Source: Burkholderiales bacterium (GTDB lineage: Bacteria > Pseudomonadota > Gammaproteobacteria > Burkholderiales > Burkholderiaceae_E). From it: a stretch of 64,000 nucleotides of DNA. Under the pieces are notes generated by a model that saw nothing but the letters and a program-made list of their open reading frames with translations, was not told the origin of the DNA and did not search any database. The number at the start of each line of letters is the position of its first letter. Position 1 is the stretch's first letter. The position numbers and the translations under genes are program-made. Shown piece by piece: positions 8,171-32,504 of this stretch. The stretch lies in NCBI GenBank assembly GCA_017307915.1, contig JAFKGG010000363.1:21879-85878 (forward strand), in the 5' to 3' direction.

Positions 8171-8234
8171 TCGTGCACCTTAGCGCGAAACGGCTGAGTG
8201 TCCCAGCGCGCGCGGCCGCGTAACCGAGCGCAGA

Positions 8235-9185: not shown

Positions 9186-9221
9186 GTCGGACAGCTTACA
9201 CCCGAATTGCGGACTGACAGT

Positions 9222-9233
9222 CACTAATCAGTG
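9222..9233. promoter_or_regulatory. Palindrome CACTAATCAGTG, candidate LysR operator
   Basis: A perfect 4+4 inverted repeat (CACT-AATC-AGTG) with further symmetry outside (AGT and ACT) lies between the LysR gene and the divergently transcribed gene at 9334. Position and symmetry fit a LysR box. Binding is inferred. Confidence 0.4.
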
Positions 9234-9333
9234 GACTATGACCGCCTTACTCCCATCGATTTTGGACTGCACAATCCACCCCATCGACGCTCGCTGTGAA
9301 CGCCGAGTCAAACGAAACCGCAAGGAAAGCATC

Positions 9334-9651
9334 ATGAAAACGCTGATCAACCAACTCGCTGCCGCTGCCGTTCTCGCCACGCTGGCCGGTGCCGCCACTG
9401 CCGCCCCGGTCGGCGAATGGATCGACTACCCGGGTCCGGTGCAGCAACTGACGCACAAGAGCCGCGCTGAAGTGCGCGCCGAGATCGGCACCGTCGACAC
9501 GGCTTCGCCGTTCGTGACGCAGGGCGAATTCGTGCAACGCAACCCTGCCTACACGGCGCCCGCCGCGCGCAGCCGGATCGACGTGCGCAACGAAGGGCGC
9601 GAGGCGCAGAAGGCGCATGTCGGCGCCTTCGACCCGGACTACTTCGGTTGA
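9334..9651 (+). CDS. Small exported protein, DUF4148-like
   Basis: The ATG at 9334 follows AAGGAAAG and gives 105 aa. Residues 1-24 are a clear Sec signal peptide (MKTLINQLAAAAVLATLAGA ending in TAA), cleaved around AAP. The mature part contains SRAEVRAEIG, which resembles the LTRAQVRAEL-type element of the DUF4148 family common in Burkholderiales, and ends in FDPDYFG. It has no cysteines or membrane segments after the signal, so it should be periplasmic. Function is unknown. It is divergent from the LysR gene and may be its target. Confidence 0.75.
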   Translation: MKTLINQLAAAAVLATLAGAATAAPVGEWIDYPGPVQQLTHKSRAEVRAEIGTVDTASPFVTQGEFVQRNPAYTAPAARSRIDVRNEGREAQKAHVGAFDPDYFG

Positions 9652-9826
9652 GCGCGATCGGGTACGCGCTGCCGGACGCCGTCTTGCGCGGCTGTCCTGG
9701 CTGTGTGGCCCGTGCCCGCTACTTTCCGCCTACCGGAAAGCGCCGCCGAATTGCTTAGCGTCGCCGGTCGCCGCTCCTAAACTGCCTGCGCACAATCAAG
9801 GCGCATCAGCGAGGAGGCGACCGAGC

Positions 9827-10804
9827 ATGAAACTGGCAAGCTTCGTCATCGACGGCCGCGATACGTTCGGCTTTCAGGCCGCACCGGGCCGCGTCGTGGA
9901 ATGGGCCGCGGCCGCTGCGGCCTTCGGGCTGGATTGGCGCGATGGTCCGCGCGACATGCACGACTTCATCGAGGCCGAGCCGGCGCGCCGGCAGGGCTGG
10001 CGCGAGCTGCATGATCGCGTCGTGGCCGAGCCGGGCCGCGTGCCCAGTCACGATGCCGATGCGCTGCATTGGCGCGCACCGGTGCGGCGACCTTCGAAAA
10101 TCTGCTGCCTGGCGCTGAACAACAGCGCCAACGTCGATCGCATCCTCAGCGGCCCGAAGCATCCGGCGATATTCATCAAGCCGTCGAGCGCGCTGATCGG
10201 CCACGGCGAGGCAATCGAGTTGCGCGCCGCTTACGGCCGCGTGCACCCCGAGCCCGAGCTGGCGCTGGTGATCGGCCGGCGCGCCAAGAATGTGGCGGCG
10301 GCCGATGCGCTCGACTACGTGTTCGGCTATACGATCCACAACGATCTCACCGCGCCGACGATGCGCGGCGAAGACACCTTCCATTACCGCGCCATTCACC
10401 CGAAGAGCGGCGACGCCACGGCGATCGAATACGTCGATTCCCACGTCAGCTATCCCGGCCGCTACAAGTGCAGCGACACCTTCGCCGCGCTGGGGCCGTG
10501 GCTGGTGACGCGCGACGAGATTGCCGATCCGCATGCGCTGGACGTGAGCTGCCTGCACCAGGGCTCGCTGGTCACGCACGACAACACGGTCAACCTGTTC
10601 CACAAGGTGCCGCAAGTGATCGAGTTCATCTCGCACTACATGACGCTGCTGCCGGGCGACGTGGTGTCGATGGGCACGGCGCTGCAGCGTTCGCCCGGTG
10701 GACGCGCGGTGCAGAACGTCGATCTGACCACGCTGGGCGGTCCGGTGGCGGTGACGATCCAGGGGCTCGGCACCCTGTCGAATCCGGTGCGAATGATCGA
10801 TTGA
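9827..10804 (+). CDS. Fumarylacetoacetate hydrolase family protein
   Basis: The protein (325 aa) starts at ATG 9827 behind GAGGAGG at 9811-9817. The FAH-fold metal site is visible: Glu residues in HPEPELALVIG and the Asp in YTIHNDLTAP; the C-terminal MGTALQRSPGG segment is also typical. The family hydrolyses C-C bonds in fumarylpyruvate or fumarylacetoacetate, or decarboxylates or hydrates related keto acids. No other hydrolase of this family is seen in the window, so it could complete homogentisate or gentisate breakdown with HmgA (31080) and the isomerase at 22437, but it lies 10 kb away beside a different regulator. The Bug receptor gene follows at 75 bp. Confidence 0.87.
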   Translation: MKLASFVIDGRDTFGFQAAPGRVVEWAAAAAAFGLDWRDGPRDMHDFIEAEPARRQGWRELHDRVVAEPGRVPSHDADALHWRAPVRRPSKICCLALNNSANVDRILSGPKHPAIFIKPSSALIGHGEAIELRAAYGRVHPEPELALVIGRRAKNVAAADALDYVFGYTIHNDLTAPTMRGEDTFHYRAIHPKSGDATAIEYVDSHVSYPGRYKCSDTFAALGPWLVTRDEIADPHALDVSCLHQGSLVTHDNTVNLFHKVPQVIEFISHYMTLLPGDVVSMGTALQRSPGGRAVQNVDLTTLGGPVAVTIQGLGTLSNPVRMID

Positions 10805-10878
10805 ACATGGCTCGCGCGTCCGGCGGGCGTCGTAGATACTCCGCCGGCCTCGCCGGGCGATCAACTTGGGAGACTTGC

Positions 10879-11856
10879 ATGCGACAGCTTCTGACATCCT
10901 GCCTGCGCTGGTGCGTCGCCGCGTCGGCTGCCCTGCTGCTGGCGGCGCCGGCGCAAGCCGCGTATCCGGAAAAAACGGTGCGCATCGTCGTACCGTGGGA
11001 ACCGGGCGGCTCGGCCGACGTGTTTGCGCGCCAACTGGCCGATCATCTGGCGAAGGAGACGAACCAGTCGTTCGTCATCGAGAACAAGCCAGGTGCCTCG
11101 GGCAACATCGGTTCGGCCCAGGTGGCGCGTGCGCCGGCCGACGGTTATACGCTGTTGCTCGGTTCGATGAGCACGCACATCTTCCAGCCGGCGATTGGCG
11201 CGTCGGCGCCGTTCGATCCGATCGACAGCTTCACGCCGATCGCTCGACTCGGCTTCATCACCAATACGCTGGCGGTGCGCAGCGCGCTGCCGGTGAACAG
11301 CGTGAAAGAGCTGATCGACTACGCCAAGGCCAATCCGGGCAAGGTCTCGTATGCCTCGGCCGGCGTCGGCTCGTTCAATCACCTGAGCGCGGCGCTGTTC
11401 GAAAAGCGCGCCGGCATCGAACTGCTGCACGTGCCCTACAAAGGCGGCTCGAAGGCGGCGCTGGCCACGGCCTCGGGCGAAACCGACATGGTGTTCTCGT
11501 CGATCGGGCTGACCGCGCCGCATACCAAGAGCAATCGCCTGCGCATCCTGGCGGTGGCCGAGGCGCGGCGCAGCACGCTGCTGCCGAGCGCGCCCACGGT
11601 GGCCGATACGCTGCCCGGTTTCCAGGTGTCGATCTGGTATGGCCTGTTCGGACCCAAAGGCCTGCCCACGGAAGTGACCGAGGCCTTGTCGCGCTGGGCC
11701 CAGAAGATGAGCGCCGACCCCGAGGCGCGCGCCAAGCTTGCGCAGGGCGGCGCCGAGTTCGACATCGTCACCGGCAATCAGTTCCTGACGCAGATGCGCA
11801 GCGAAACGGCGAGCTGGAAGGCCTTCGCGACGCAGAACGGCATCAAGGCGCAGTAG
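10879..11856 (+). CDS. Tripartite tricarboxylate transporter receptor (Bug family)
   Basis: This is a periplasmic solute-binding protein of 325 aa with a Sec signal peptide (MRQLLTSCLRW and a hydrophobic run ending AQAA). The Bug hallmarks are present: YPEKTVRIVVPWEPGGSADV, ENKPGASGNIGS and APADGYTLL. Bug proteins bind carboxylate ligands; few have matching TctAB membrane parts, and none is seen here. It sits 75 bp after the FAH-fold gene on the same strand and converges with the IclR gene. The ligand may be the substrate of that hydrolase pathway, which is inference. Confidence 0.93.
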   Translation: MRQLLTSCLRWCVAASAALLLAAPAQAAYPEKTVRIVVPWEPGGSADVFARQLADHLAKETNQSFVIENKPGASGNIGSAQVARAPADGYTLLLGSMSTHIFQPAIGASAPFDPIDSFTPIARLGFITNTLAVRSALPVNSVKELIDYAKANPGKVSYASAGVGSFNHLSAALFEKRAGIELLHVPYKGGSKAALATASGETDMVFSSIGLTAPHTKSNRLRILAVAEARRSTLLPSAPTVADTLPGFQVSIWYGLFGPKGLPTEVTEALSRWAQKMSADPEARAKLAQGGAEFDIVTGNQFLTQMRSETASWKAFATQNGIKAQ

Positions 11857-20131: not shown

Positions 20132-20184
20132 CGCACGCGGCGCCGATCCGCTCCTGCATGCTTCAATGGATGTCGTCTTTGCCT

Positions 20185-21384
20185 TCAGTCGCCGGCAGGC
20201 AGGTCGACGCGGATGGCATCGTACCCATAGATCCAGTCATAGCGGTCGTCGATTTTTCCTCGCTCCCATTCGCGGTCGATGTGGGCGACCGCCGTGGCCG
20301 GATCCGCGAGCTGGGGCGCGTGCACGCGCCCGACCTGCTCGGCCGAGCTGCGCACGATCCGCGACGTGCGCTCGCGGCGAGCGCGTTCGTAGGAAAGCAG
20401 CGCCGCCTCGGGGCTCGCGCCCGGCTGCGACAGGCATCGGGCCAGCACAAAAGCATCCTCGATCGCCATGTTTGCGCCCTGACTGAGAAACGGCAGCGTC
20501 GAGTGGCAGGCATCGCCCAGCAACGTCACGCGGCCGACGCTCCACCGTTCGAGCGGCTGGCGTACGATCAGCGCCCACTTGTAGGGAATGAGGATCGCCT
20601 CGACCATCTGGCGCACGTCTGCGTGCCAGCCCTGGAAATCGCGCAGGCATTCCTCCACGGTGCCCTGCGCGTTCCAGGATTCGACGCGCCAATCGTCGCG
20701 ATCGACCATGCCGATGAAGTTCAGCAGCGCGCCCTTGCGCACCGGATAAGTCACGATGTGTGCGACCGGGCCGAGCCACATGCCGCCCCCGGCGCGATCG
20801 ATGCTCTGCGGCAGCCGCTCGGCCGGTATCAGGCCGCGCCACGCGATGCAGCCGGTGAATTCGGCGCGATCAGCGCCGAACAGCTGCTGGCGGATCGGGG
20901 AGTGCACGCCATCGGCGCCGACGACCACGTCGGCCGTCGCCGTCGACCCGTCGGCGAATCGAATGTCCACCGAATCGGAACGTGCCACCAGGTCGACGCA
21001 CTTGCGGCCCAGATGCAGCACCTCGGGCGCGGCCTGTACCACGGCCTGGCGAAGCAGGTCGTGCAGGTCTGCCCGATGGAAGGTGAGATAGGGCGCACCG
21101 TAGCGTTCCACGGCGGCGTCACCGAGCTGCATGAATTCTCTCGTCTCACCCGTGTTCCACAGATGAATGCGCTTGCCGCGCGTGCGGGTGCCGACGCGAT
21201 CGATCTCCGCCGACAAACCCAGCGCCTGAAGAACGCGAGCCCCGTTCGGCGTGATCTGCACGCCGGCCCCGACCTCGGTGAGCTCCTGGGCCTGCTCGTA
21301 GACATCCACCGGGATACCGCGCCGGATCAAGGCCAGAGCAGCCGCCAAGCCGCCGATTCCGCCGCCTACTATCGCCACTCGCAT
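20185..21384 (-). CDS. FAD-dependent aromatic-ring monooxygenase (salicylate/3-hydroxybenzoate hydroxylase type)
   Basis: A class A flavoprotein hydroxylase of 399 aa. The FAD and NAD(P)H motifs are present: VAIVGGGIGGLAAALAL at the N-terminus (GxGxxG), GADGVHSPIR (the DG motif) and RVTLLGDACHSTLPFLSQGA (the GD motif). It adds one oxygen to a phenolic or pyridine acid using NAD(P)H. It is the last gene of the leftward operon that carries a molybdenum hydroxylase and a maleylacetoacetate isomerase. Together with HmgA nearby, an attractive role is para-hydroxylation producing homogentisate or a gentisate-type product. The exact substrate cannot be read from the sequence. Confidence 0.9.
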   Translation of the reverse strand: MRVAIVGGGIGGLAAALALIRRGIPVDVYEQAQELTEVGAGVQITPNGARVLQALGLSAEIDRVGTRTRGKRIHLWNTGETREFMQLGDAAVERYGAPYLTFHRADLHDLLRQAVVQAAPEVLHLGRKCVDLVARSDSVDIRFADGSTATADVVVGADGVHSPIRQQLFGADRAEFTGCIAWRGLIPAERLPQSIDRAGGGMWLGPVAHIVTYPVRKGALLNFIGMVDRDDWRVESWNAQGTVEECLRDFQGWHADVRQMVEAILIPYKWALIVRQPLERWSVGRVTLLGDACHSTLPFLSQGANMAIEDAFVLARCLSQPGASPEAALLSYERARRERTSRIVRSSAEQVGRVHAPQLADPATAVAHIDREWERGKIDDRYDWIYGYDAIRVDLPAGD

Positions 21385-21436
21385 CGTCCGTCTCCCATTT
21401 TCCGGTGCATGTATCGATGCCGCAATCGTCGATCCG

Positions 21437-22426
21437 TCACTGAAGCTTGATCCCGGCCTTCTCGATCAGCACGCGCCACTTCTCGCCTTCGTCGCGCCAG
21501 AACTTGTCGAAAGCCGCGGGCGCCATCGGCGCCGGCGTGATGCCGGCGTCCAGCAGTCTCTTCGATACCGCGGCGTTCTTCAGCGAACCGATCAAGGCAT
21601 TGCTGAGCTTGTTGACGGTCGCATCGGGTACGCCGCTCGGCACGACCAATCCCTGCCAGCCCCAGACCTCCAGATCCTTGAATCCGGCCTCGACCGTCGT
21701 GGGTATGTCTTCGAAGCCGGGAATGCGCTGATCGGTGAACGAAGCGATGGCCTTCAGGCGTCCCGATTTGATCAGCTCGGCCGCGCCGGCGCCGGTATCG
21801 AGCACCATCAACATCACCTGGCCTGAGATCAGATCCTGGATCGCCGGGGCAATACCTTTGTAGGCCACGTGGGTCATGTCGATGCCGGCACGATCCTTGA
21901 GCAGCTCCATCGCGAGATGGTGCGGGCTGCCGATGCCCGGCGAGGCATAGTTCAAAGGGCCGCTCTGGCGCTTCGCGAATTCGATCAGCTGCGGCAGCGA
22001 CTTGGCCTGCAGGCCCGGATTGGCGACCAGGATCATGCCGAATCGCCCCATCATGCCAATGCTGCGAAAGTCGCGCGTCGGTGAGTACGGCAGCTTCTCC
22101 TTGAACAGGCTGGGGTTCACCGCGAGCGTCGCGACATTGCCCAGCAGCAGCGAGTAGCCATCGGGCGCGGAACGCGCCACCGTTTCGGCGCCGATGATGG
22201 TTGCGGCGCCCGGGCGATTGTCGATCAGCACCGGTTGGCCGAGAAGTTCGCCCATCGCCGGTGCAACGGCACGCGCCAGGATGTCCGAACCGCCTCCCGG
22301 CGGATATGGCACGACGAGCCGCATTGGCCGGGAGGGAAAGCCCGCTTCCTGCGGCCATGCGGCTTGCGCGGCCAGGCCCAGTGTCGTACCGAGAGAGATC
22401 TTGCCAAAACTGCGTCTATCCATCAT
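21437..22426 (-). CDS. Tripartite tricarboxylate transporter receptor (Bug family)
   Basis: The protein (329 aa) starts at the first of two ATGs, with GAGG six bases upstream. The signal peptide is MMDRRSFGKISLGTTLGLAA, and its RRSFG could be read by the Tat system. Bug hallmarks: SRPMRLVVPYPPGGGSDILA, DNRPGAATIIGAE and APDGYSLLLGN. It lies between the isomerase and the FAD monooxygenase in the catabolic operon, so it probably captures the pathway substrate, an aromatic or heteroaromatic acid, in the periplasm. Confidence 0.93.
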   Translation of the reverse strand: MMDRRSFGKISLGTTLGLAAQAAWPQEAGFPSRPMRLVVPYPPGGGSDILARAVAPAMGELLGQPVLIDNRPGAATIIGAETVARSAPDGYSLLLGNVATLAVNPSLFKEKLPYSPTRDFRSIGMMGRFGMILVANPGLQAKSLPQLIEFAKRQSGPLNYASPGIGSPHHLAMELLKDRAGIDMTHVAYKGIAPAIQDLISGQVMLMVLDTGAGAAELIKSGRLKAIASFTDQRIPGFEDIPTTVEAGFKDLEVWGWQGLVVPSGVPDATVNKLSNALIGSLKNAAVSKRLLDAGITPAPMAPAAFDKFWRDEGEKWRVLIEKAGIKLQ

Positions 22427-22436
22427 GACCTCGTTG

Positions 22437-23075
22437 TCAAAAACGATCAGGTTGGGACTCGGGGGCTGCCTGCGCGAAAGCGGGTAGGGCGAGGCAGGTT
22501 TGCTCGATGCGTACCAGCCGGGCGTGCATGTCGAGCGGGCAGCCGAAGCGCCGCGCGTTGTACAGCTGAGGCACCAGGCAGATGTCCGCCATCGTGGGCG
22601 CGGAACCGCAACAGAAAGGCGAGCCGTCATCGGGGCCGAGCAGCGCCTCGAATGCGCGCAGACCCTCGGCGATCCAGTGTCGATACCACCGGTCGCAGTC
22701 GGCCGGCGTGGATTGCAGATCCCGCTTGAGATAGCGCAACACGCGGGCGTTGTTCAGCGGGTGGATGTCGCAGGCCACGGTGCTGGCCAGCGCTCGTGCG
22801 GTGGCGCGCTGTTCGCGATCGGCGGGCAGCAGCGGCGGTTCGGGCCAGCGTTCTTCCAGGTATTCGAGAATCGCCGGCGATTGCACGAGCAGACGGCCGT
22901 CGTCGAGCAGCAGCGCCGGCACCAGCCCCTGCGGATTGACGGCCGTGAATGCCGGCGCCAGGTTCTGCTCGGTGGCGAGGTTCACGGCGATCGGTTCCCA
23001 CGCCAACCCTTTCAGGTTGAGCGCAATGCGAACCCGATAGGCCGTTGACGAGCGCCAGTAGGTATACAGTTTCAT
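22437..23075 (-). CDS. maiA: Maleylacetoacetate isomerase (zeta-class glutathione S-transferase)
   Basis: The protein (212 aa) has the zeta-GST signature YTYWRSSTAYRVRIALNLKG, in which SSTAYRVR forms the glutathione site, plus NPQGLVPALLLDDG and QSPAILEYLEE. It isomerises maleylacetoacetate to fumarylacetoacetate, or maleylpyruvate to fumarylpyruvate, with glutathione. Its start overlaps the end of the hydroxylase small subunit by 4 bp, which ties ring hydroxylation and ring fission products to one operon. HmgA, its expected partner, is encoded on the opposite arm of the island. Confidence 0.9.
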   Translation of the reverse strand: MKLYTYWRSSTAYRVRIALNLKGLAWEPIAVNLATEQNLAPAFTAVNPQGLVPALLLDDGRLLVQSPAILEYLEERWPEPPLLPADREQRATARALASTVACDIHPLNNARVLRYLKRDLQSTPADCDRWYRHWIAEGLRAFEALLGPDDGSPFCCGSAPTMADICLVPQLYNARRFGCPLDMHARLVRIEQTCLALPAFAQAAPESQPDRF

Positions 23076-24289
23076 CGACTTGATGCTCCGAACAGCCTGA
23101 GCAAGTGCGCGCGCAGCCGCGCGACAAATCCCGATGCCGGCATGGCTTGCGCTGCGCCGGCGCCGTCTGCGTCGTTGATGATCAGCGCCCGCAGGTTGTC
23201 GCTCAATTCGTTCGCCAAGCGGTTCGCGACCGCGGTGACGATGCCGGTTCTGGCGAACTGCGCCAAGGCGCCGGACAAGCGGAAGCTCGTCGATACCTGC
23301 AGCTCGGTGTTGTCGGCATCGATGGCGTGCAGCGCATAGTCGAGCCGGCTGGCGAAGCGGGTGTTCGTACGCGCATCACGGCCTTCGCTGATCACCGATC
23401 CGCGGCGATTCGCTTCATCGCGATCGATCCACGAGCGCGTCACAAACACGGTTCGCACCGGGCCGAGTCCCAGCTTCAGCCGGCTGTCGATGCGTGCCGG
23501 GTCATCGCCGGGAAACAGCGTGAGCCCCGGCATGCAGGCGGCGACACGACGGGGGTCTGCGATCAGATCCCATACGGTGTCGATCGGGCGTTCTATCCTG
23601 AGCGTGCGGGACAGCGTCAAGTCGTCCGGCGTCGGCTCGTACTGCGATCGGGTGGCGAACTCCGCCTCGATGCCGGGCGCAAGCTGATCAGGCGGATCGG
23701 ATCGGTGCGTCGGTGCGGCGACATTGGCGGTGGGCCGGGCAACCCGTGGCGCTTCGTCGACGCCGGCCGCTTGCGCGCGCGGCGCACGGGCCGTGATCCG
23801 CAGCGGCTCATGATCGTGCGTCGGTTGACGTGATCGGATCACGTCGAGAACGGCCGCCACGATGCCCGCGTAGCCGGTGCATCGACAGAGGTTGCCGGAC
23901 ATTTCCCGGCGCACGGTCGCTTCGTCGGCCTGCGGAAACCTCAGCACCACGTCGCGCGCGGCGATCAGCATGCCCGGCGTACAGTAGCCGCATTGCAGCG
24001 CATGGTGGCGGCGAAACGCGGCTTGCAACAGCTGCATGACCGGATCTTTCTGCAGGCCCTCGATGCTGTGCACGCTCATGCCGGCGCAGCCCGCCGCCAG
24101 CGTCAGGCACGAGCGCACCGGATGCCCGTCGATCAGTACGTTGCAGGCCCCGCAAACGCCTTGTTCACAGGAGAGATGCGTGCCGGTCAACCTGAGTTCG
24201 TCGCGCAGGAAGTCGGCCAGCGTGACCCGTGCCGACACGTCGGCGCACACGTCCCGGTCATTGACGCGCATCGACGTGTGTCCGCTCAC
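23072..24289 (-). CDS. Molybdenum hydroxylase [2Fe-2S] subunit fused to a CoxG/SRPBCC domain
   Basis: The protein (405 aa) starts at GTG 24289, which overlaps the stop of the FAD subunit by 4 bp. Residues 1-155 are the xanthine-oxidase-family iron-sulfur subunit: plant-type ligands C41, C46, C49 and C61, then C100, C103, C135 and C137 (CGYCTPG and CRCTGY). After a 60-residue polar linker, residues 215-375 form an SRPBCC domain like CoxG (SRTLRIERPIDTVWDLIADP, AACMPGLTLF), and residues 385-405 end in a basic amphipathic tail. CoxG in CO dehydrogenase systems is a separate membrane-anchoring protein, so the fusion may anchor or assemble this hydroxylase. Confidence 0.9.
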   Translation of the reverse strand: MSGHTSMRVNDRDVCADVSARVTLADFLRDELRLTGTHLSCEQGVCGACNVLIDGHPVRSCLTLAAGCAGMSVHSIEGLQKDPVMQLLQAAFRRHHALQCGYCTPGMLIAARDVVLRFPQADEATVRREMSGNLCRCTGYAGIVAAVLDVIRSRQPTHDHEPLRITARAPRAQAAGVDEAPRVARPTANVAAPTHRSDPPDQLAPGIEAEFATRSQYEPTPDDLTLSRTLRIERPIDTVWDLIADPRRVAACMPGLTLFPGDDPARIDSRLKLGLGPVRTVFVTRSWIDRDEANRRGSVISEGRDARTNTRFASRLDYALHAIDADNTELQVSTSFRLSGALAQFARTGIVTAVANRLANELSDNLRALIINDADGAGAAQAMPASGFVARLRAHLLRLFGASSR

Positions 24290-25122
24290 TGCAACACCTC
24301 GCGAACAGCGCGATACAGCGCGGTGGCGCGAATCCGCTGCATGACCGGATCGTTGGTGGTGTCTATCGCTTCGAGTTGGCGCTCTGCCCAGGGGCGATCG
24401 AAATCGGCGCTGTGCCGAATGCTTGCGTCGGACAGAAGCTTTTCGACTGCTTCTAGGCGCCGCGGACCTGCGGGCAGCCCGCCGAGCACCACGCGCGCCT
24501 GCTTCGATGCGGGATCGATGACGATGGCCACGATCGCGTCGGCAAACTCGCCCGATTTGCGTGCGATCTTGTGATAGGTCCAGCGCATGCTGGCAGCGCG
24601 AACCGGAACCTCGATCGCGATCAGCACTTCGCCGGGCTGCAGCGCCGTACTGAATGCGGCCTCGCCAAGCGTCTCCACCGGAATTCGACGTTGGCCTTCC
24701 GGGCCTTGAACCAGCACGCTGGCGCCGAGCGCCGTCAGCGCAACGGGCCAATCCGCGGAGGGGTCGGCATGGGCGAGGCTGCCGCCGATCGTGCCGCGCA
24801 CGCGCACCGGGCGCCAGGCGATGCCGGCGGCCACGTGGCGCATCATGCCCGCGGTGACGTCTGCAACGGCGCCGTCTTCGACCATCGCGTGGGTGGTCAG
24901 CGCACCGAGTACCAGCACGTCGCCTTTGATCTGCGCTCCGTTCAAGGCATCGATGCGCTCCAATCCGACCAGCGTGGTCGGGTTGGCCACCCGCAGGGCC
25001 AGCATCGGCAGCAAGGACTGGCCGCCGGCGAGCACGCGTGCCTCGCCCTCGTCCTGCATCAGGCAGTCGATGGCCTGTGCGACGGTGTGCGGCTGCACGA
25101 ACTCGAACGGCGGCAGCTTCAT
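24286..25122 (-). CDS. Molybdenum hydroxylase FAD-binding (medium) subunit
   Basis: The protein (278 aa) carries the FAD motifs of the CoxM/XdhB family: VLAGGQSLLPMLALR and the second GTIGGSLAHADPSADWP. It passes electrons from the iron-sulfur subunit to the acceptor. ATG 25122 overlaps the large-subunit stop and its own stop overlaps the small-subunit start, both by 4 bp, so the three subunits are made in equal measure. The order large-medium-small is seen in several aromatic and N-heterocycle hydroxylases. Confidence 0.94.
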   Translation of the reverse strand: MKLPPFEFVQPHTVAQAIDCLMQDEGEARVLAGGQSLLPMLALRVANPTTLVGLERIDALNGAQIKGDVLVLGALTTHAMVEDGAVADVTAGMMRHVAAGIAWRPVRVRGTIGGSLAHADPSADWPVALTALGASVLVQGPEGQRRIPVETLGEAAFSTALQPGEVLIAIEVPVRAASMRWTYHKIARKSGEFADAIVAIVIDPASKQARVVLGGLPAGPRRLEAVEKLLSDASIRHSADFDRPWAERQLEAIDTTNDPVMQRIRATALYRAVREVLQ

Positions 25123-27551
25123 CGAGCTGCCCCGGTGTCTGCAAGGGCCGCTGCAGTTGCAGCTTCGGCGGGTGCGGCTGACGATGCATCGCGTCGCCCT
25201 GCATCGCCGCGCAGCGCCGATGCTTCGAGCAGGGCGCTCAGGATGCGTCGCGGCGTGGCCGGCGATTGCCTGACCACGGCGCCCAGCGGATGCAGGGCGT
25301 CGTTGATCGCTGCCACCACTACGGCGGCCGATGGAATAGCGCCGCCTTCGCCTGCGCCCTTGATGCCGAACTCGGTGAACGGACTGGGGTGCTCCAGATG
25401 TTCGATGTGGATCGCGGGCACGTCGCCGGCGGCAGGAAGCAGATAGTCGAGCAGCGTCGAGGCCAGCGGCTGGCCGTCGGCGCTGTAAGGCGATTCCTCG
25501 AACAGCGCCGATCCGATGCCTTGAACCACGCCCCCGATCACCTGCCCTTCGACGATCATCGGATTGACGCGGGTGCCGCAATCTTCGACCACAACGTAGT
25601 CGATGACCGTGACGTGTCCGGTGTCGGTGTCCACCGCTACCCGCGCAGCATGAGCGCCGTAGGAAAACGCGCCGAACTCGGAAGCAGGCGAGTGATAGTG
25701 CGTCACCGCCAGGGCAGGGCGATCGCGTTCGAACAGATCCGGGCGTTCCTGCCAGGCGCGTGCGATCTCCATTAGCGGCAGGATGGATGATCCGGCTTCA
25801 TTGCTGACAACCCCGCCGGCCAGCTTCAGCGTCGAAGCTTCGCAGTGAAGAAGCGTGCCGGCGAGCGCCAGCAGATTGGTGCGCAATTGCTGACAGGCAC
25901 CGGCGACCGCGCCGCCGGCCATCACCATGGCGCGCGAGGCATAGGTGCCGGTCGAATGAGGCGTCAAGGCGGTATCGCCGTGCATGACGCGGATGCGCTC
26001 GATCGGTACGCCGAGGATTTCGTGCGCGACCTGCGCCATCGTGGTTTCCATGCCCTGGCCGTGCGACTGCATGCCGATGCGGATTTCGAGGCTGCCGTCG
26101 GGTTCCAGTTGCACGCAGGCCGGCTCGGCCGCGACCGGCACTGGCAAGCGCCAGCGTCGAGCTGCTGCCGTGCCATGGCCGGTCAGTTCGGTGTAGCACA
26201 CCACGGCAGTGCCTTCGCGCAGCACGCCGTTCGAATCGTTCGTACAGGGGCGCCGCCGCGCTTCGATCAGTTGCTGTGCACGGCGCAATGCCTGCGGGTA
26301 ATCGCCGCTGTCGAGCGTCTTGCCGGTCACGGTCTTGAACGGCATGTCGTCGGGCTGCGGCAGATTGTCGAGCCGCACCGCCCAGGGCTCGCGGCCGACC
26401 TCGCGGGCGAGCTCATCGATCAGCAGTTCGAGCGCGAAGCACGCACCTGGGCGAGCCACGCCTCGATAAGGCGCTGCCGGCGGCTTGTGCGTCGCAACCG
26501 CGCGCGATACGGCGCTGTACGCAGCTACCCGATAGGGGCCGGAGAGATTGCCCACCGCCATGCCGGCATCGAGCGTATTGGTGAAAGGCACCACCGCATA
26601 GGCACCGGCATCGATGAGCACTTCGGCACGGATGCCGAGCAGCCGGCCGCGCCGATCGGCACATGCGGCGATCCGGTAGCGGTGCTCGCGAGTATTCGCG
26701 CCTGCCACCAGATGCTCGCGGCGATCTTCGCACCAGCGCACGGGGCGTTGCAGATGGATCGCCAGCCAGCTGACCAGCACCTCTTCGGGCTGCACGATGC
26801 TCTTGAAGCCGAAGCCGCCGCCGACGTCGGGCGCGATCACCCGGATCTGCGACCGGTTCAGCGCCAGGCTGATCGCGAGCTGGTCGCGCACCAGATGCGG
26901 GATCTGCGTCGACGTGTACAGAATCAGTTGCCGGGTGCCGCTGTCCCACTGCGCGAGGCAGCCCTTGCCTTCCATCGGGTGCGCGGTCTGGCGGCTCATC
27001 GCGTATTCGCGTTCGATGACGACCGGTGCCGAGTTCATCGCTTCTCTGGCCGCGTCGTCGCCGGCCTCGAGCTTGAGTTCGGCGATCAGATTGCTGCCCC
27101 AGTCGGCATGCACGAGCGGCGCTTGCGGCGCCAATGCAGATCTGGCGTCGGTGACCGCTGCAAGCGGGTCGAATGCAACTTGCAGCGATTGAGCGATGTC
27201 TTCGGCCTGCGCCCGGGTTGGCGCAATACACGCTGCGATCGGCTCGCCGACGAAGCGCACCCGGTCGATAGCCAGCACCGGATAGGGCGCGCTGCGCGCC
27301 TCGGGCAGCGGATTGGCGGGCAGCATCGGCAAGGCCGTGCCGAGCGAATCGGCCGTGAAGACCGCATCGCGATGGGGTGCAGGTATGTCGAGCGATCGGA
27401 TCGTGGCGTGCGCAACCGGGCTGCGATACAAGGCCACTTCGAGCAGGCCCGGCAGCTGGATGTCGCCCACGAAGCGGGCCTGCCCACCGAGATGCCGATC
27501 ATCTTCGGTGCGCAATACACGCGATCCGATACCCGAGCCCTGGTGGACCAT
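25119..27551 (-). CDS. Molybdenum hydroxylase large (molybdopterin-binding) subunit
   Basis: The protein (810 aa) is a xanthine oxidase/CO dehydrogenase family catalytic subunit. Moco-binding stretches include VGGGFGFKSIVQPEEVLVS and GMQSHGQGMETTMAQVA; the catalytic Glu is E735 in KGAGEGGAIP. The active-site loop reads PYRGVARPGA, not the CSFR loop of form I CO dehydrogenase, so a hydroxylase of aromatic or N-heterocyclic substrates is more likely. Start ATG 27551 is preceded by AAAGGAG with a 9-base spacer; a start at 27578 lacks a site. It is the first gene of the leftward operon and diverges from marR. Confidence 0.93.
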   Translation of the reverse strand: MVHQGSGIGSRVLRTEDDRHLGGQARFVGDIQLPGLLEVALYRSPVAHATIRSLDIPAPHRDAVFTADSLGTALPMLPANPLPEARSAPYPVLAIDRVRFVGEPIAACIAPTRAQAEDIAQSLQVAFDPLAAVTDARSALAPQAPLVHADWGSNLIAELKLEAGDDAAREAMNSAPVVIEREYAMSRQTAHPMEGKGCLAQWDSGTRQLILYTSTQIPHLVRDQLAISLALNRSQIRVIAPDVGGGFGFKSIVQPEEVLVSWLAIHLQRPVRWCEDRREHLVAGANTREHRYRIAACADRRGRLLGIRAEVLIDAGAYAVVPFTNTLDAGMAVGNLSGPYRVAAYSAVSRAVATHKPPAAPYRGVARPGACFALELLIDELAREVGREPWAVRLDNLPQPDDMPFKTVTGKTLDSGDYPQALRRAQQLIEARRRPCTNDSNGVLREGTAVVCYTELTGHGTAAARRWRLPVPVAAEPACVQLEPDGSLEIRIGMQSHGQGMETTMAQVAHEILGVPIERIRVMHGDTALTPHSTGTYASRAMVMAGGAVAGACQQLRTNLLALAGTLLHCEASTLKLAGGVVSNEAGSSILPLMEIARAWQERPDLFERDRPALAVTHYHSPASEFGAFSYGAHAARVAVDTDTGHVTVIDYVVVEDCGTRVNPMIVEGQVIGGVVQGIGSALFEESPYSADGQPLASTLLDYLLPAAGDVPAIHIEHLEHPSPFTEFGIKGAGEGGAIPSAAVVVAAINDALHPLGAVVRQSPATPRRILSALLEASALRGDAGRRDASSAAPAEAATAAALADTGAAR

Positions 27552-27643
27552 CGGGATGCGCTCCTTTGGTGTGGTCACGCGCCGTGCTTTTCGAGAGGCT
27601 TGAACCAGGCCGGCGTCATAAGAATTCGTTTCAGATTACATAC

Positions 27644-27656
27644 GTTTCGTAACTAA
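27644..27656. promoter_or_regulatory. Candidate MarR box GTTTCGTAACTAA
   Basis: This element lies between the hydroxylase operon and the MarR gene. A close match, GTTTCGCAACTAT (28408-28420), and an inverted ATTTGCAACTAA copy lie upstream of the rightward operon. Their presence on both arms of the island suggests recognition by the MarR protein encoded between them. Binding is inferred. Confidence 0.5.
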
Positions 27657-27774
27657 TGCAAGCCCTCATACCACGCCCGCGGTAGTGCCTGGTGGCGCGG
27701 AGGGGGTACCTGATTGGACTAAAATCGCAAGGGTTTCTCGCAGTGATCCGCCATCACCCAGAACATCGGAATCC

Positions 27775-28320
27775 ATGACTCATCCGACCTTGCCGCTCGA
27801 ACGGTTTCTGCCGTATCGCCTGTCCCGACTCGACAACGAAATCAGCCAGGCGCTGGAGCGGATATACGGCCCGTCGTTCGGATTGAACATTGCGCAGTGG
27901 CGGATGCTGGCCGCGATTTCGCATTTGCAACCGACCTCGGCCACCGAACTGATCGCGTACTCGGCCATGGATAAAGTCACCGTGAGCCGCGCCGTGGCCG
28001 AACTGGTCGACCGGGCGCTGGTGAGCCGGGAAACCGACGATCGCGACCGGCGCCGGGCCCGCCTGTCGCTGACTGATGACGGCACCCGTGTCTACGAACA
28101 CATCGCGCCCGAAGCGATGGCGTTCGAACAGGCGCTGGTCAAGGCTTTCAGCCGTTCGGAACTGCAGGCATTCAATCGCGGCGTCGACAAGCTGCTCGAC
28201 GCGATCGCACTGATCCAGCGCGGCAGTGCCGGGCTGTTGCCGCAGCGCCGAACGAAGGCGGCCGGTACGACCGCACAGACCACGGCGGCGCGGCGCGCGC
28301 CCGCGCGCGCACCGCGCTGA
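27775..28320 (+). CDS. MarR family transcriptional regulator
   Basis: The protein (181 aa) has a MarR winged helix (WRMLAAISHLQPTSATELIAY, then MDKVTVSRAVAELVDRALVS, and the wing DDRDRRRARLSLTDDG). The last 30 residues are a basic Ala/Thr/Arg tail outside the family. It sits between the leftward molybdenum hydroxylase operon and the rightward amidohydrolase-hmgA operon, with related sequence boxes upstream of both. The probable role is substrate-responsive repression of the island. The ligand may be an aromatic acid. Confidence 0.92.
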   Translation: MTHPTLPLERFLPYRLSRLDNEISQALERIYGPSFGLNIAQWRMLAAISHLQPTSATELIAYSAMDKVTVSRAVAELVDRALVSRETDDRDRRRARLSLTDDGTRVYEHIAPEAMAFEQALVKAFSRSELQAFNRGVDKLLDAIALIQRGSAGLLPQRRTKAAGTTAQTTAARRAPARAPR

Positions 28321-28389
28321 GCCGCTCTTTCCCCGCGCAGCAGCGCTGACGCGCGATATCGCGCCGCAACACGAAGCCTTTCACAAAAA

Positions 28390-28420
28390 TTAGTTGCAAA
28401 TTTAACTGTTTCGCAACTAT
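28390..28420. promoter_or_regulatory. Inverted repeat TAGTTGC-N15-GCAACTA upstream of the rightward operon
   Basis: Arms TAGTTGC (28391-28397) and GCAACTA (28413-28419) are perfectly inverted with a 15-base spacer, about two helical turns centre to centre, in a short A/T-rich stretch before the amidohydrolase gene. The right half matches the box at 27644. This is a likely operator for the MarR dimer. Confidence 0.55.
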
Positions 28421-28455
28421 AGTTCCGGGCATTCATCAGACGCTCGGAGGGGCCA

Positions 28456-29571
28456 ATGTTCGTGATCGATGCGGATGCACACGTGATGGAGGACGAGTCG
28501 GCGTGGGCTTTTCTCGAGCCCGAGTACCACGCCAGAAGGCCGGTTCCCGTCATCCTGCCGGAAGACACTTCGCTGACGGTCTTCAACGCGGCGTGGCTGA
28601 TCGATGAGAAGGTGCGCCTGTTCGGCGCTTCGCCGCCGCTGGGCACGCGCAGCCTGGCCAAGAAATATTCGCTGGGCTCGCAAACCTTGACGGACGTTCG
28701 TGCGCGTCTTGGCGACATGGATCGCCGCCGCACCAACGTACAGGTCGTGCATACGACGTTCGGGCTGCTGAACCTGTGCGAAGACGTCGAGCTCGAAGAG
28801 GCGCTGATGCGCAGCTTCAACAAGTACATGGCCGGGCGTTGCAAGGAGTCGGGCGGCCGTCTGCGCTATGACGCCTTGGTGCCGTTCCGGAACCCTGCCG
28901 CCGCGGTGCGCGAGTTGCGCCGGGCCGTCGAAGACGGCGGCGTCGCCGGGGTGTTCATGCGCGGGATCGAATGGGATCGGCCGGTGGGAGATCCGTACTT
29001 CTATCCGATCTATGAAGAAGCGCAGCGTCTCGATCTGCCGATCTGCGTGCACATCGGGTCGGGGGCGCCGCAGATGCGGGCCATATTCGAGAACCAGAAA
29101 CGCCTTCCCGGCGAAGAGCCGTTCTGGCCGCCGCGCGTCAAGCGCTTGCTGGGGCCGCTGACGGTGCAGTTCGGGTTCTACAGCCTCTGTGAAACGCCGA
29201 CGGCCACCGAATTTCCGAAGCTGCGGTGGGCCTTCCTGGAAACCATGGGCGTCGAGTGGGCCCTCGGGGCAGTGGGTGCTCTGGACCGCGCCGGCAAGAC
29301 CAACGCACGCAAGCTGCTCGATGAAGGGCGCGTTTTCGTTTGTGCCGAGCCGTCGGAAGACCTGGCCTACGTCGCCAATCGGCTGGGTGACGATTTCATG
29401 GTCGTCGGCAGCGACATGCCGCATCAGGACGACGCCGCCCATGACGACATCGTCGCTGAATTCGAAGCGCGCAAGGATCTTTCGCCGGCGGTGCTCGAGA
29501 AGATGCTGTCCACGAATGCCGCGCGACTGTATCGAATCGATGCCCGCGAGTTTGACCAACGCGCGCGGTGA
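28456..29571 (+). CDS. Amidohydrolase family protein (ACMSD-like)
   Basis: The protein (371 aa) belongs to the amidohydrolase-2 group. Metal ligands are seen as DADAHVMED at the N-terminus, the His in ICVHIGSG, and the Asp in VVGSDMPHQDD near the C-terminus; ETMGVEWAL is also typical. Relatives include 2-amino-3-carboxymuconate semialdehyde decarboxylase, gamma-resorcylate decarboxylase and hydrolases acting on aromatic breakdown products. It is the first gene of the rightward operon and overlaps the next gene by 4 bp. Decarboxylation of an aromatic or ring-opened acid is a reasonable guess. Confidence 0.87.
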   Translation: MFVIDADAHVMEDESAWAFLEPEYHARRPVPVILPEDTSLTVFNAAWLIDEKVRLFGASPPLGTRSLAKKYSLGSQTLTDVRARLGDMDRRRTNVQVVHTTFGLLNLCEDVELEEALMRSFNKYMAGRCKESGGRLRYDALVPFRNPAAAVRELRRAVEDGGVAGVFMRGIEWDRPVGDPYFYPIYEEAQRLDLPICVHIGSGAPQMRAIFENQKRLPGEEPFWPPRVKRLLGPLTVQFGFYSLCETPTATEFPKLRWAFLETMGVEWALGAVGALDRAGKTNARKLLDEGRVFVCAEPSEDLAYVANRLGDDFMVVGSDMPHQDDAAHDDIVAEFEARKDLSPAVLEKMLSTNAARLYRIDAREFDQRAR

Positions 29572-30656
29572 ATACGATGAGCCGCGTTGATGCGAGCGAA
29601 AGCGCAGGGGCGAACCCTGCCCTGTGGTACACGCGATGTCCGCTGCCCACCGCGTCGGCGGTGGCCATCGACCAGGGCATCCTGCAGCGCTCCTTCGAGC
29701 AGGTCGGGGTACAGGTTCAGTCCTTGCTGAGCACGGACGACCCCAAGGTGCGCCAGTCGCATTTCGACCATGGCGTTCGCAATCTGTTCCGGCAGGGCGG
29801 AAACATACCGCCGATCTGGTCGCGCTCGAGGGGCGCCGACACCTGCGTGGTCGGCATCTCGGTCACGCGCGAATATCAGGCCATCGCCGCCAGCGCCACC
29901 GGCTCGATCCGCGCGCCGGGCGACCTGCGCGGTGCGCGGCTGGCGCTGCCGCGGCGGGTCGGCGCTGCGATCGACTACTGGCGGGCCATGTGCCTGCACG
30001 GCTACGAATCGGCGCTGGCCGTGGCGGGCCTGACGCTGAGCGACGTCGAGCTGGTGGACTTGCCGGTGCAGGAGTCCTACATCGATGCCCCGGTCGGCGG
30101 CCAGGGGAAGAACATGCCGCTATGGGGCGGCCCGAGCCGGGCGCGGCGCCAGCAGGCCGAATTGATCGCCTTCGTGCGCGGCGAGGTCGACGCGTTCTAC
30201 GCGTCGGGGGCGCTGGGTCTGCAGATGGTGGCGATGCTGGGCGCGCGCGAAGTAGTTGAGCTGGGATTCGACCCCGATCCGAAGGTCGGCGCCAACAATC
30301 AGGTGCCGAACATCCTGACCGTCGACCGAACGCTGGCGCTGGAGCGGCCCGATCTGGTGGCCCGCTACATCGCTGCGCTGAACGAAGCCGCGCGCTGGGC
30401 GCGTGCGCATCCCGACGAGGCCGCGCGCAGTTTTGCGCGCGAGATCGGCGCGCCGGAAGAATGGCTGCCGGCTGCCTATGGTGACAAGGTGATCGACAGT
30501 CTTCCCTTGGCGCTCGACGACGATGCGATCGCTGCTCTAGACGCGCAGGCGGCGTTCCTGCGGCGCCATGGCTTCATCGATTCAGCGGTATCGATCGAAC
30601 AGTGGATCGTTGCCGAACCGCTTGCCCTCGCAAACCAGGAGATCTTTCAAGCATGA
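29568..30656 (+). CDS. DszB-like desulfinase / cytoplasmic SsuA-THI5-fold protein
   Basis: This 362-aa protein has the fold of nitrate/sulfonate-binding proteins but no signal peptide, so it is cytoplasmic. It lines up with 2'-hydroxybiphenyl-2-sulfinate desulfinase DszB: Cys24 in WYTRCPLPTA matches the DszB nucleophile Cys27 (YSNCPVPNA), His65 in QSHFDHG matches His60, and Arg75 with GG in LFRQGGNIPP matches Arg70 and Gly73 (TRFGGEIPP). The spacing between the His and Arg is the same as in DszB. C-S bond cleavage of an aryl sulfinate, or a related hydrolysis, is inferred. Most databases would call it an ABC substrate-binding protein, but no transporter genes lie nearby. Confidence 0.72.
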   Translation: MNTMSRVDASESAGANPALWYTRCPLPTASAVAIDQGILQRSFEQVGVQVQSLLSTDDPKVRQSHFDHGVRNLFRQGGNIPPIWSRSRGADTCVVGISVTREYQAIAASATGSIRAPGDLRGARLALPRRVGAAIDYWRAMCLHGYESALAVAGLTLSDVELVDLPVQESYIDAPVGGQGKNMPLWGGPSRARRQQAELIAFVRGEVDAFYASGALGLQMVAMLGAREVVELGFDPDPKVGANNQVPNILTVDRTLALERPDLVARYIAALNEAARWARAHPDEAARSFAREIGAPEEWLPAAYGDKVIDSLPLALDDDAIAALDAQAAFLRRHGFIDSAVSIEQWIVAEPLALANQEIFQA

Positions 30657-31048
30657 ATCAGTTCATGAATCCCAAAGGGCTGGCCACTCCCAAGGGTTAC
30701 ACGCACGTCGTGCGTTCGACCGGGCGGACCATGATTACTATCGCCGGACAGGTCTCCTACGACGAGACCGGCGCGGTCGTCGGCGTCGGCGATCTGCGGC
30801 GCCAGACCGAACAGGTGTACGAGAACATCCGCATCGCCCTCACCGCGGTTGGTGCCAGCTTCGATGACGTCGTGAAGACCACGATCCTGATCAAGGATAT
30901 GACGCCGGCAAAGATCGCCGCCGTCAGGGAAGTGCGCGCACGGTTCCTTTCCCCTGATTCGCCGCCGGCCAGCACGCTGATCGCGGTGCCCGCGCTTGCG
31001 CATCCCGACCTGCTGCTCGAGATCGAGGCAACCGCCATCATCGACTGA
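30653..31048 (+). CDS. RidA/YjgF family protein lacking the catalytic Arg
   Basis: The protein (131 aa) has the Rid fold: TITIAGQVSYDETGAVVG-like strands, QVYENIRIALTAVGASFDDV, and the C-terminal DLLLEIEATAIID. RidA proteins hydrolyse reactive enamines/imines. The segment usually reading PARSCVEV here reads PPASTLIAV, so the Arg that defines deaminating RidA proteins is Ser or Ala. It may have another role or bind a different intermediate. The start ATG 30653 overlaps the previous stop by 4 bp; CAGGAG lies upstream. Confidence 0.88.
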   Translation: MNQFMNPKGLATPKGYTHVVRSTGRTMITIAGQVSYDETGAVVGVGDLRRQTEQVYENIRIALTAVGASFDDVVKTTILIKDMTPAKIAAVREVRARFLSPDSPPASTLIAVPALAHPDLLLEIEATAIID

Positions 31049-31079
31049 CGGTGACGCATACCCTGAGCAGGAGACCCCA

Positions 31080-32420
31080 ATGAACGATTTGCGCACGACC
31101 GGGGCGACGCGGGTCTCCCCGGGGGCAGACAGCGACCGCGCCCGCTACATGAGCGGCTTCGGCAACGAATTCGAATCCGAAGCGCTGCCCGGCATTCTCG
31201 AACCGGGGCGCAACAACCCGCAGCAGGTTGCCCGGGGGCTGTACGCCGAGCAGATTTCCGGCACGGCGTTCACCGCGCCGCGGGCCGAAAATCGCCGCAC
31301 CTGGGCGTATCGAATCCAGCCTTCGGCGTCGGCGACGGCATGGGCGCCGTATCGGCATGAGCGGCTCGCGGCGGCGCCGTTTGCGCTCGAAGGCGCCGTG
31401 CCGGCACCGATGCGCTGGAGTCCGATGCCGCTGCCCGAATCGCCCGTCGATTTCGTCGATGGCTTGTTCACGGTCGGCGGGGCCGGCGATCCGCGTGCCC
31501 AGTGCGGCCTGGCCATCCACTGGTATGCGGTCAACCGCTCGATGCAAAGGCGCGTGCTGTGCAATGCCGACGGCGAATTGCTGATCGTGCCGCAGGCCGG
31601 TCGCCTGACGATTCGCACCGAGCTGGGCGTGCTCGATCTGGTACCGGGAGAAATCGGCGTGTTGCCGCGCGGCATCCGGTTTTCCGTAGAGCTCAAGGAT
31701 TCTGCCGCGCGCGGATACGTGTGCGAGAACTACGGCGCCATGTTCCGGCTGCCTGAGCTGGGGCCCATCGGGGCCAATGGCCTGGCCAATCCGCGCGATT
31801 TTCTGGTGCCGGTGGCCGCCTGGGAAGATCGCCGCGAACCCTATGAACTACTGACCAAATACGCAGGCCGGCTGTGGCGCTGCGAGCTTGCCTGTTCGCC
31901 GTTCGACGTGGTGGCATGGCATGGCGACCTGGTGCCCTACAAATACGACCTGGCGCGTTTCGTCGTGTTCGGATCGATCAGCGTCGATAGTCCGGATCCG
32001 TCGATATCGACGGTGCTGACTTCTCCGTCGCAGGTACCGGGCGTCGCCAACGTCGACTTCGTGGCCTTCGTTCCACGCTGGCAAGTCATGGAAGGCACGT
32101 TCCGGCCGCCCTTTTTTCATCGCAACATGATGAGCGAATTCATGGGGTCGATCCAGGGCATATACGAAGGCAAGGCTGACGGATTCGTCCCTGGCGGTTC
32201 CAGCCTGCACAACCGGATGACGCCGCACGGGCCCGACGTGAACGTGTTCCAGGCCGCGTCGACGATGTCGCTGTCGCCGGTGAAGCTCGATGAAACCCTG
32301 TCGTTCATGTTCGAATCGCAGTACGCGATCGATCTGACGCCCTACGCACTGGATGCCGCGTGGTTGCAGCGCGACTATGCGTCGTGCTGGCAGGGGTTCC
32401 CGCGCAATTTTCAGCCCTGA
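31080..32420 (+). CDS. hmgA: Homogentisate 1,2-dioxygenase
   Basis: The protein (446 aa) has the diagnostic N-terminus YMSGFGNEFESEALPGIL and FTAPRAENRRTWAYRI. Iron ligands appear in PPFFHRNMMSEFMG (His and Glu) and in SSLHNRMTPHGPD (His). It opens the ring of homogentisate to maleylacetoacetate, using Fe(II) and O2. It closes the rightward operon 31 bp after the RidA-like gene, while its expected partners maiA (22437) and an FAH-fold hydrolase (9827) lie elsewhere in the window, and hpd at 53837. Start ATG 31080 follows GCAGGAGA. Confidence 0.96.
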   Translation: MNDLRTTGATRVSPGADSDRARYMSGFGNEFESEALPGILEPGRNNPQQVARGLYAEQISGTAFTAPRAENRRTWAYRIQPSASATAWAPYRHERLAAAPFALEGAVPAPMRWSPMPLPESPVDFVDGLFTVGGAGDPRAQCGLAIHWYAVNRSMQRRVLCNADGELLIVPQAGRLTIRTELGVLDLVPGEIGVLPRGIRFSVELKDSAARGYVCENYGAMFRLPELGPIGANGLANPRDFLVPVAAWEDRREPYELLTKYAGRLWRCELACSPFDVVAWHGDLVPYKYDLARFVVFGSISVDSPDPSISTVLTSPSQVPGVANVDFVAFVPRWQVMEGTFRPPFFHRNMMSEFMGSIQGIYEGKADGFVPGGSSLHNRMTPHGPDVNVFQAASTMSLSPVKLDETLSFMFESQYAIDLTPYALDAAWLQRDYASCWQGFPRNFQP

Positions 32421-32504
32421 GGCGGGCTATAGACCCTGCTGCTTCGACAGGCGCCGCGCAGGTTCAAGAAGCGCGGCGTCGGCTTTGACAAGTGCGGCGC
32501 CGGT

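Follow-up and report, generated by a model that had tools for sequence, protein, structure and literature searches.

A horizontally acquired island of predicted aromatic catabolism genes with an HmgA paralogue lacking a second-shell histidine in a Burkholderiales bacterium

The DNA analysed here, called the window below, is a stretch of 64,000 nucleotides from a Burkholderiales bacterium (assembly GCA_017307915.1, contig JAFKGG010000363.1, positions 21,879 to 85,878 of the forward strand), whose draft genome comprises 6.1 Mb in 521 contigs with a completeness of 94.42% and a contamination of 4.75%. Between positions 20185 and 32420, from the stop codon of a gene for a FAD-dependent monooxygenase to that of an hmgA gene, the window carries an island of predicted catabolic genes in two arms with a marR gene between them. 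An earlier note on this DNA had listed these genes with their coordinates, strands and arrangement; all of them are present and match the families named, and the starts and stops of the genes were checked. The features are as follows.

20132 to 32504, no strand: inserted stretch between the AIG2-like gene and rfaE2, delimited by comparison with relatives
20185 to 21384, minus strand: FAD-dependent aromatic monooxygenase (FMO), relative of 3-hydroxybenzoate 6-hydroxylase, NicC and tropone monooxygenase; FAD_binding_3
21437 to 22426, minus strand: Bug/TctC periplasmic solute receptor, TctC family match
22437 to 23075, minus strand: maiA, maleylacetoacetate isomerase family, TIGR01262 above cut-off
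23072 to 24289, minus strand: molybdenum hydroxylase small (2Fe-2S) subunit (S) with a CoxG domain, its start assumed to be the GTG at 24289
24286 to 25122, minus strand: molybdenum hydroxylase FAD (medium) subunit (M), family match
25119 to 27551, minus strand: molybdenum hydroxylase large subunit (L), closest in sequence to quinoline 2-oxidoreductase among solved structures
27644 to 27655, minus strand: box TAGTTACGAAAC ahead of the left arm, suggestive only
27775 to 28320, plus strand: marR regulator gene, open reading frame (ORF) from 27685, ATG at 27775
28391 to 28419, no strand: inverted repeat TAGTTGCAAA-N9-TTCGCAACTA ahead of the right arm
28456 to 29571, plus strand: PF04909 (Amidohydro_2) 'amidohydrolase' with an AibH2-type dinuclear ligand set
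29568 to 30656, plus strand: DszB-like enzyme with Cys24, His65 and Arg75-Gln-Gly-Gly
30653 to 31048, plus strand: Rid-family protein, the Arg of imine hydrolysis replaced by Ser
31080 to 32420, plus strand: hmgA paralogue, TIGR01015, His-to-Ser at residue 332 (ORF numbering from 30996)

In the order of transcription, the left arm (minus strand) reads L, M, S with its CoxG domain, maiA, Bug and FMO, and overlaps of 4 bases join L to M and S to maiA. The right arm (plus strand) reads amidohydrolase, DszB, Rid and hmgA and is closely packed, with a GTGA common to the amidohydrolase and DszB genes and an ATGA common to DszB and Rid; hmgA starts 31 bases past rid, and GGAGA precedes its ATG.

Comparison with relatives indicates that the whole block is one insert and was horizontally acquired. 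The flanking genes, a SPOR gene and rfaE2, are near neighbours in two of the three congeners examined, with 87 bp between their match ends in G355 and 518 bp in G102, and the third congener (G179) holds about 4.8 kb there; in the window they are separated by 12,848 bp. Since the AIG2-like gene also sits between the flank genes in G240, a member of the same family and of another genus, the insert runs from after the AIG2-like gene (20131) to rfaE2 (32505). Both flanks follow the gene order of the relatives, which speaks against contamination. A comparison of two 250-base stretches at the island ends revealed no common repeat of more than 9 bases. The island is real and is a mixture of known parts, and the most useful facts about it are a recurring amidohydrolase-DszB-MaiA set and a serine in its HmgA where all others examined have a histidine.

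The HmgA proteins were aligned in 32 rows, comprising the window, 28 fetched loci, two host paralogues and Pseudomonas putida, drawn from 71 matches including the window's own (L085, with a longest frame of 278 aa, was left out of the count). The 2-His-1-carboxylate iron ligands (P. putida H331, E337 and H367) are kept in 32 of 32 rows, and the window protein also keeps the Tyr346 and His361 positions. At P. putida position 288, the window protein has Ser332 (codon AGT, 31989-31991), and the other 31 rows have His. This column is that of human His292, which stands 43 residues ahead of His335 in the human chain. HmgA was also found in 162 plasmid records, and the three inspected likewise have His there, so that Ser occurs only in the window among the 35 HmgAs read. 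The window protein further carries D311, S338, F373 and S385 in near-invariant or invariant columns of N, F, W and L, respectively, and in a tree of 27 rows it lies on a long branch with weakly supported placement (85/46). The host genome has three HmgA genes; both other copies keep the His and adjoin an FAA-hydrolase-family match (the C92 one scores weakly against NCBIfam), and the window hmgA has no FAA-hydrolase-family gene adjacent to it. The copy on C92 (L032, 1739-3070) shows a change of its own, with His where 31 other rows, the window included, have Tyr (P. putida Tyr346).

A passage of a review (PMC4019311) attributes to Titus and co-workers the suggestion that homogentisate loses the protons of its 5- and 2-hydroxyls with the help of His292 and His365 or of a metal-bound hydroxide, and a passage of PMC6337169 places His292 on the ring hydroxyl. 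The loss of His292, together with neighbouring genes whose relatives serve a 5-amino substrate (see below), suggests that the enzyme opens an analogue without the 5-hydroxyl, that is, a homogentisate analogue lacking the para hydroxyl and not homogentisate. The earlier note had predicted fission of homogentisate or a close analogue; fission of the HmgA type is supported, and homogentisate itself becomes doubtful with the loss of a second-shell histidine that the 34 others keep.

A single scan of genome contigs with the DszB-like protein yielded five sister loci of the right arm, in a Rhodospirillales metagenome-assembled genome, two Reyranella, a Burkholderiales metagenome-assembled genome and Pigmentiphaga kullae K24. 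In all five, the amidohydrolase gene (46-49% identical) directly precedes the DszB-like gene (51-53%), maiA (55-57% identical to the window's) lies downstream of the pair, and a Rid gene comes after maiA. The ring cleaver in each is a cupin dioxygenase, MabB (5-aminosalicylate 1,2-dioxygenase), with 665-677.5 bits against a cut-off of 650, and HmgA, FMO and the L, M and S subunits were found in none of the five (within about 10 kb, E<=1e-8). With MabB in the sister loci and HmgA in the window, the amidohydrolase-DszB-MaiA set thus occurs with two different para-type ring cleavers. Clustering adds further genes common to the sister loci, one for a gamma-glutamyltransferase-like protein and others for an NMT1-type receptor accompanied by an ABC ATPase and a permease. 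The Pfam comparison of these genes covered L022, and the similarity of the transferase is weak for L018-L020. Two of the loci (L020, 7450-8748; L022, 7426-8706) encode a citrate-synthase-family protein with an N-terminal helix-turn-helix, transcribed away from the set, which may be a regulator or an enzyme.

The set is rare. At E<=1e-40 the amidohydrolase was found in its own genome only among 398 genomes of the phylum, and among 399 genomes of the order in its own and in one 33%-identical match with no DszB-like gene around it. The DszB-like protein was found at E<=1e-20 in seven of the 399 order genomes, its own included, and the other six showed no such amidohydrolase in the order-genome search or in the fetched stretches. 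On plasmids, the amidohydrolase appeared in 4 records at no more than 28.5% identity and the DszB-like protein in 91 records, one of which was inspected.

The amidohydrolase is predicted from its sequence to be a dinuclear-metal oxygenase. Part of the text of PMC7782822 gives the di-iron ligands of AibH2 as Asp25, His27, His211, Glu265, Asp337 and His340 and says that an acidic residue at position 342 is conserved only in two-metal members. In the window protein and five relatives, Asp7, His9, His199, Glu262, Asp320, His323 and Asp325 are invariant (6 of 6), so that the window protein resembles AibH2, PtmU3 and SfbO in all six positions that bind the metals and in the additional acidic residue. 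A family profile has nine PDB matches, of which six are chains from entries for dinuclear oxygenases (8sm6-8sm9, PtmU3 and AibH1H2); the remaining three are 4dzi, an uncharacterised protein, and two gamma-resorcylate decarboxylases. The AibH2-type ligand pattern may be common in PF04909 proteins of unknown role, so the oxygenase function remains a prediction. A decarboxylase of the gamma-resorcylate type was considered because 2dvt came top in the single-sequence search; it was rejected, as 2dvt has Phe at the ligand His323 in its weak third alignment and ranks, narrowly, below several dinuclear oxygenases in the profile search. A structure predicted from 6 sequences had a mean pLDDT of 56.4, too poor for a fold search. 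This oxygenase reading and the MabB-bearing sister loci, both drawn from sequence comparison, take the right arm beyond what the earlier note had described.

The DszB-like protein belongs to the NMT1/SsuA-like proteins, and the solved structure closest to it in sequence is that of DszB of the 4S pathway (2de2, E 2.2e-18). It keeps all of DszB Cys27, His60, Arg70 and Gly73, with the Arg-x-Gly-Gly motif, although the identity is only 27.5% over 320 aligned residues. Among 20 rows including DszB, Cys is present in 18, His in 19 and Arg in 20. The tree groups 12 rows in one clade (97/97) that excludes the window protein, which falls in an unresolved part together with L023 and the five MabB-linked copies. 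The neighbourhoods of DszB relatives, L023 and a Variovorax locus among the fetched ones, were read for sulfur genes. The relative in L023 adjoins a luciferase-like monooxygenase and an FMN reductase. In Variovorax paradoxus CP063167 (L037, 8968-18177), the gene lies with an SDR, a sulfurtransferase, an ABC transporter, a cysteine dioxygenase family protein and a cystathionine beta-lyase, possibly a thiol-to-sulfinate-to-sulfite route. The contexts of these two relatives favour cleavage of a C-S bond, and the kept Cys, His and Arg support the possible desulfination step of the earlier note. DszA and DszC are luciferase-type and acyl-CoA-dehydrogenase-type monooxygenases, and no match to either type was found among the island proteins. 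An ABC transporter receptor, as the Pfam NMT1 assignment would have it, was rejected since no signal peptide is seen by eye and the catalytic residues are kept.

The window MaiA scores 271 bits against TIGR01262 (cut-off 171.05), and the MaiA proteins beside hmgA in two Paraburkholderia plasmids are 48-49% identical to it. Together with HmgA it supports the aromatic catabolic island with HmgA-type ring fission and MaiA isomerisation that had been predicted earlier. The ring cleaver of the sister loci points to the mab pathway of Comamonas QT12, which, in the portion of PMC9584955 consulted, converts 3-aminobenzoate to 5-aminosalicylate and then opens the ring; the same portion presents the orf7 'deaminase' and orf9 'hydrolase' as thought to act after cleavage, single mutants still having degraded the compound. 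The host itself has a mab-like cluster on contig C284 (L107, 5000-14900) with an FMO, MabB (666 bits, above cut-off) and a Rid protein; additional genes resemble, by eye, those of a flavin reductase, a LIV-type ABC transporter and a GntR regulator. The host mab Rid shares 66-69% identity with the Rid proteins of L018-L020 and 47-48% with those of L021-L022. The island resembles the mab pathway in its para-type ring cleavage, in a possible later deaminase step and in the MabB used by the sister loci of its amidohydrolase-DszB pair; it differs in that its ring cleaver belongs to the HmgA family and not to MabB, and that its Rid and FMO are distant from the mab counterparts.

Taken together, we tentatively propose, as possible though short of probable, that this is an acquired catabolic island for an aromatic of the aryl-acetate type, in which the HmgA paralogue opens a non-homogentisate analogue, most simply 5-amino-2-hydroxyphenylacetate. 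The gene content, the kept catalytic residues, the Ser of HmgA, the recurring amidohydrolase-DszB-MaiA set and the insertion site are observed, and from them we infer the chemistry, step order and substrate. The molybdenum hydroxylase would prepare the substrate, by hydroxylation of an N-heteroaromatic or by aldehyde oxidation, and the dinuclear-metal oxygenase of the amidohydrolase superfamily would also take part in this preparation. The DszB-like enzyme might then use its cysteine as the proton donor to cleave off a ring sulfinate or a different leaving group, and the FMO could next hydroxylate the ring. The HmgA paralogue would open the ring, MaiA would isomerise the cis product, and the final step would fall to a fumarylacetoacetate-type hydrolase encoded elsewhere. 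A 5-amino-2-hydroxyphenylacetate would match MabB, a 5-aminosalicylate dioxygenase, taking the place of HmgA in the sister loci. In its most specific form, which we regard as rather doubtful, an HmgA paralogue without the histidine opens an amino or non-hydroxyl analogue and shares one operon with a dinuclear oxygenase and a cofactor-free desulfinase that strips a sulfur group first, the oxygenase-desulfinase-isomerase set being portable and plugging into MabB or HmgA cleavage.

Several points weigh against the proposal of an analogue substrate, and they concern both the enzymes and the linkage of the two arms. The 5-amino substrate is suggested by analogy alone. The window HmgA scores as a homogentisate dioxygenase, with 619.7 bits against TIGR01015 (cut-off 510.75), and the His position was read in 30 of the 70 other HmgA matches. 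No Rieske ferredoxin was found among the 10 island proteins or hmgA; in a passage of PMC10811679, a Rieske ferredoxin neighbour is the criterion used to find amidohydrolase-related dinuclear oxygenases, from which the island differs in this respect, and a Rieske-domain protein is present near the module of sister locus L022. The profile matches of the amidohydrolase are also all weak (E 1e-10 to 9e-9) and close together, with the decarboxylases intermixed. The window Rid is 28-33% identical to mab-type Rid proteins and has Ser at the Arg position of 2dyy and 1xrg (RidA Arg105), where six other aligned Rid proteins have Cys. Arg105 is needed for imine hydrolysis in RidA, as stated in a passage of PMC4433059. 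It is absent in all seven Rid proteins aligned, which leaves the deaminase label of the window Rid without support from the sequence.

The FMO bears on the same question. Its best solved relative is tropone 2-monooxygenase, followed by 6-hydroxynicotinate 3-monooxygenase, and in NCBIfam it comes closest to 3-hydroxybenzoate 6-monooxygenase, with a score below the cut-off. It was found in 603 plasmid records, of which two were inspected and one more was reached via hmgA. The FMO is 50% identical to one beside hmgA-fahA-maiA on a Paraburkholderia PREW-6R plasmid and only 30% identical to that of the host mab cluster, which favours a hydroxyphenylacetate route. Such an ordinary homogentisate route, close to the view of the earlier note, would start from a hydroxyphenylacetate, which the FMO would turn into homogentisate for opening by HmgA and isomerisation by MaiA, with Ser or water replacing His292 and the other genes removing a side group upstream. 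It agrees with the HmgA score, with the kept iron ligands and Tyr346 and His361 positions, with the presence of MaiA and with this kind of FMO, all of them likenesses to the known hmgA-fahA-maiA pathway, and a Ser-water pair might stand in for His292 as an alternative to a change of substrate. The island departs from that pathway in its Ser, seen in none of the other HmgAs read, in having no fumarylacetoacetase gene beside hmgA and in the added amidohydrolase, DszB, Rid and molybdenum hydroxylase genes, and the genome already has two His-bearing HmgAs; we consider the ordinary route somewhat unlikely. In Sagittula and Neorhizobium, FMOs of 52-53% identity are surrounded by transporter and hydroxycinnamoyl-CoA genes, with hmgA, maiA and DszB absent within about 9 kb, so the linkage of FMO and HmgA is not general.

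The molybdenum hydroxylase has the Mo-binding, FAD and 2Fe-2S domains of a xanthine oxidase-type enzyme on L, M and S. A relative of L at E<=1e-200 occurs in 18 of 389 order genomes, its own included. The surroundings were fetched for 11 of the 19 L matches outside the window, one being the host's second copy and some ended by contig ends, and no amidohydrolase, DszB, HmgA, FMO or MaiA gene was found at any of these 11 loci. With this lack of linkage, the molybdenum hydroxylase has the least certain place among the pathway members. The fusion of S to CoxG (23072-24289) is not unique, as S aligns over about 370-400 residues in four of the 11 loci (L059, L060, L061 and L065). The closeness of L to quinoline 2-oxidoreductase and of the FMO to 6-hydroxynicotinate 3-monooxygenase would suit a route through an N-heterocycle, in which the molybdenum hydroxylase and a NicC-like FMO hydroxylate a pyridine- or quinoline-type acid, HmgA opens the heterocycle and Rid and the amidohydrolase free the nitrogen. 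This is distinctly unlikely, given that the ligand set of the amidohydrolase suggests an oxygenase, that the sister amidohydrolase-DszB loci have no molybdenum hydroxylase and that we know of no HmgA that opens a pyridine.

The window contains just two exact copies of the motif TAGTTRCGAAAC, one per promoter (27644-27655 for the left arm and 28408-28419 for the right), and three further sites at 2 mismatches; the right-arm copy is part of a 9/10 inverted repeat. The position of marR and the exact 12-mer in both promoters fit a shared control and are suggestive of it, but the statistics do not back it: the two intergenic stretches resemble each other no better than dinucleotide shuffles do (12 matches in the best 16-mer, against 11-13 in 60 shuffles), and the 12-mer, picked after being seen, is not above chance at up to 2 mismatches (5 matches, shuffle mean 2.63). 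The related boxes that the earlier note had placed upstream of both arms are the weak part of its description. The arms could be two unrelated clusters, the left (molybdenum hydroxylase, Bug and FMO) and the right having different substrates and sharing only a regulator or a position. This fits the absence of right-arm genes from the 11 L loci, that of the molybdenum hydroxylase, FMO and HmgA from the five right-arm loci, the FMO relatives without hmgA and the box similarity at chance level. It fits less well with maiA, which lies in the left operon with its 4-base overlap with S and accompanies the amidohydrolase-DszB pair in all five sister loci, or with the whole block being one insert, and we hold it to be unlikely. 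The joining of the arms, for which a search for the gene set in other genomes had been suggested, is thus borne out for MaiA (five of five) and not for the molybdenum hydroxylase (0 of 5 and 0 of 11).

If the proposal of a non-homogentisate substrate is true, an enzyme of the HmgA family acts on a substrate other than homogentisate, with one residue pinpointed, and the island gives a genomic lead to a joint role of the uncharacterised DszB-like and two-metal PF04909 proteins. To our knowledge, there is no bacterial HmgA-family case acting on a non-homogentisate substrate. In searches of the open-licence literature of PubMed Central, we found no HmgA-family case with another substrate and no paper joining homogentisate with a desulfinase, a molybdenum hydroxylase or aminophenylacetate.

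Two further loci are of interest for the last step and for the molybdenum hydroxylase. At 9617-10804 of the window, about 10 kb off the island, an FAA-hydrolase-family gene lies beside a divergent LysR gene; it is below the listed NCBIfam cut-offs and could serve the last step. In L101 (G180, 6077-11672), an hmgA (62% identical to the window's, with the His kept) and a fumarylacetoacetase gene lie beside two-subunit molybdenum aldehyde oxidoreductase-like genes, an independent neighbourhood of a molybdenum hydroxylase and the homogentisate genes.

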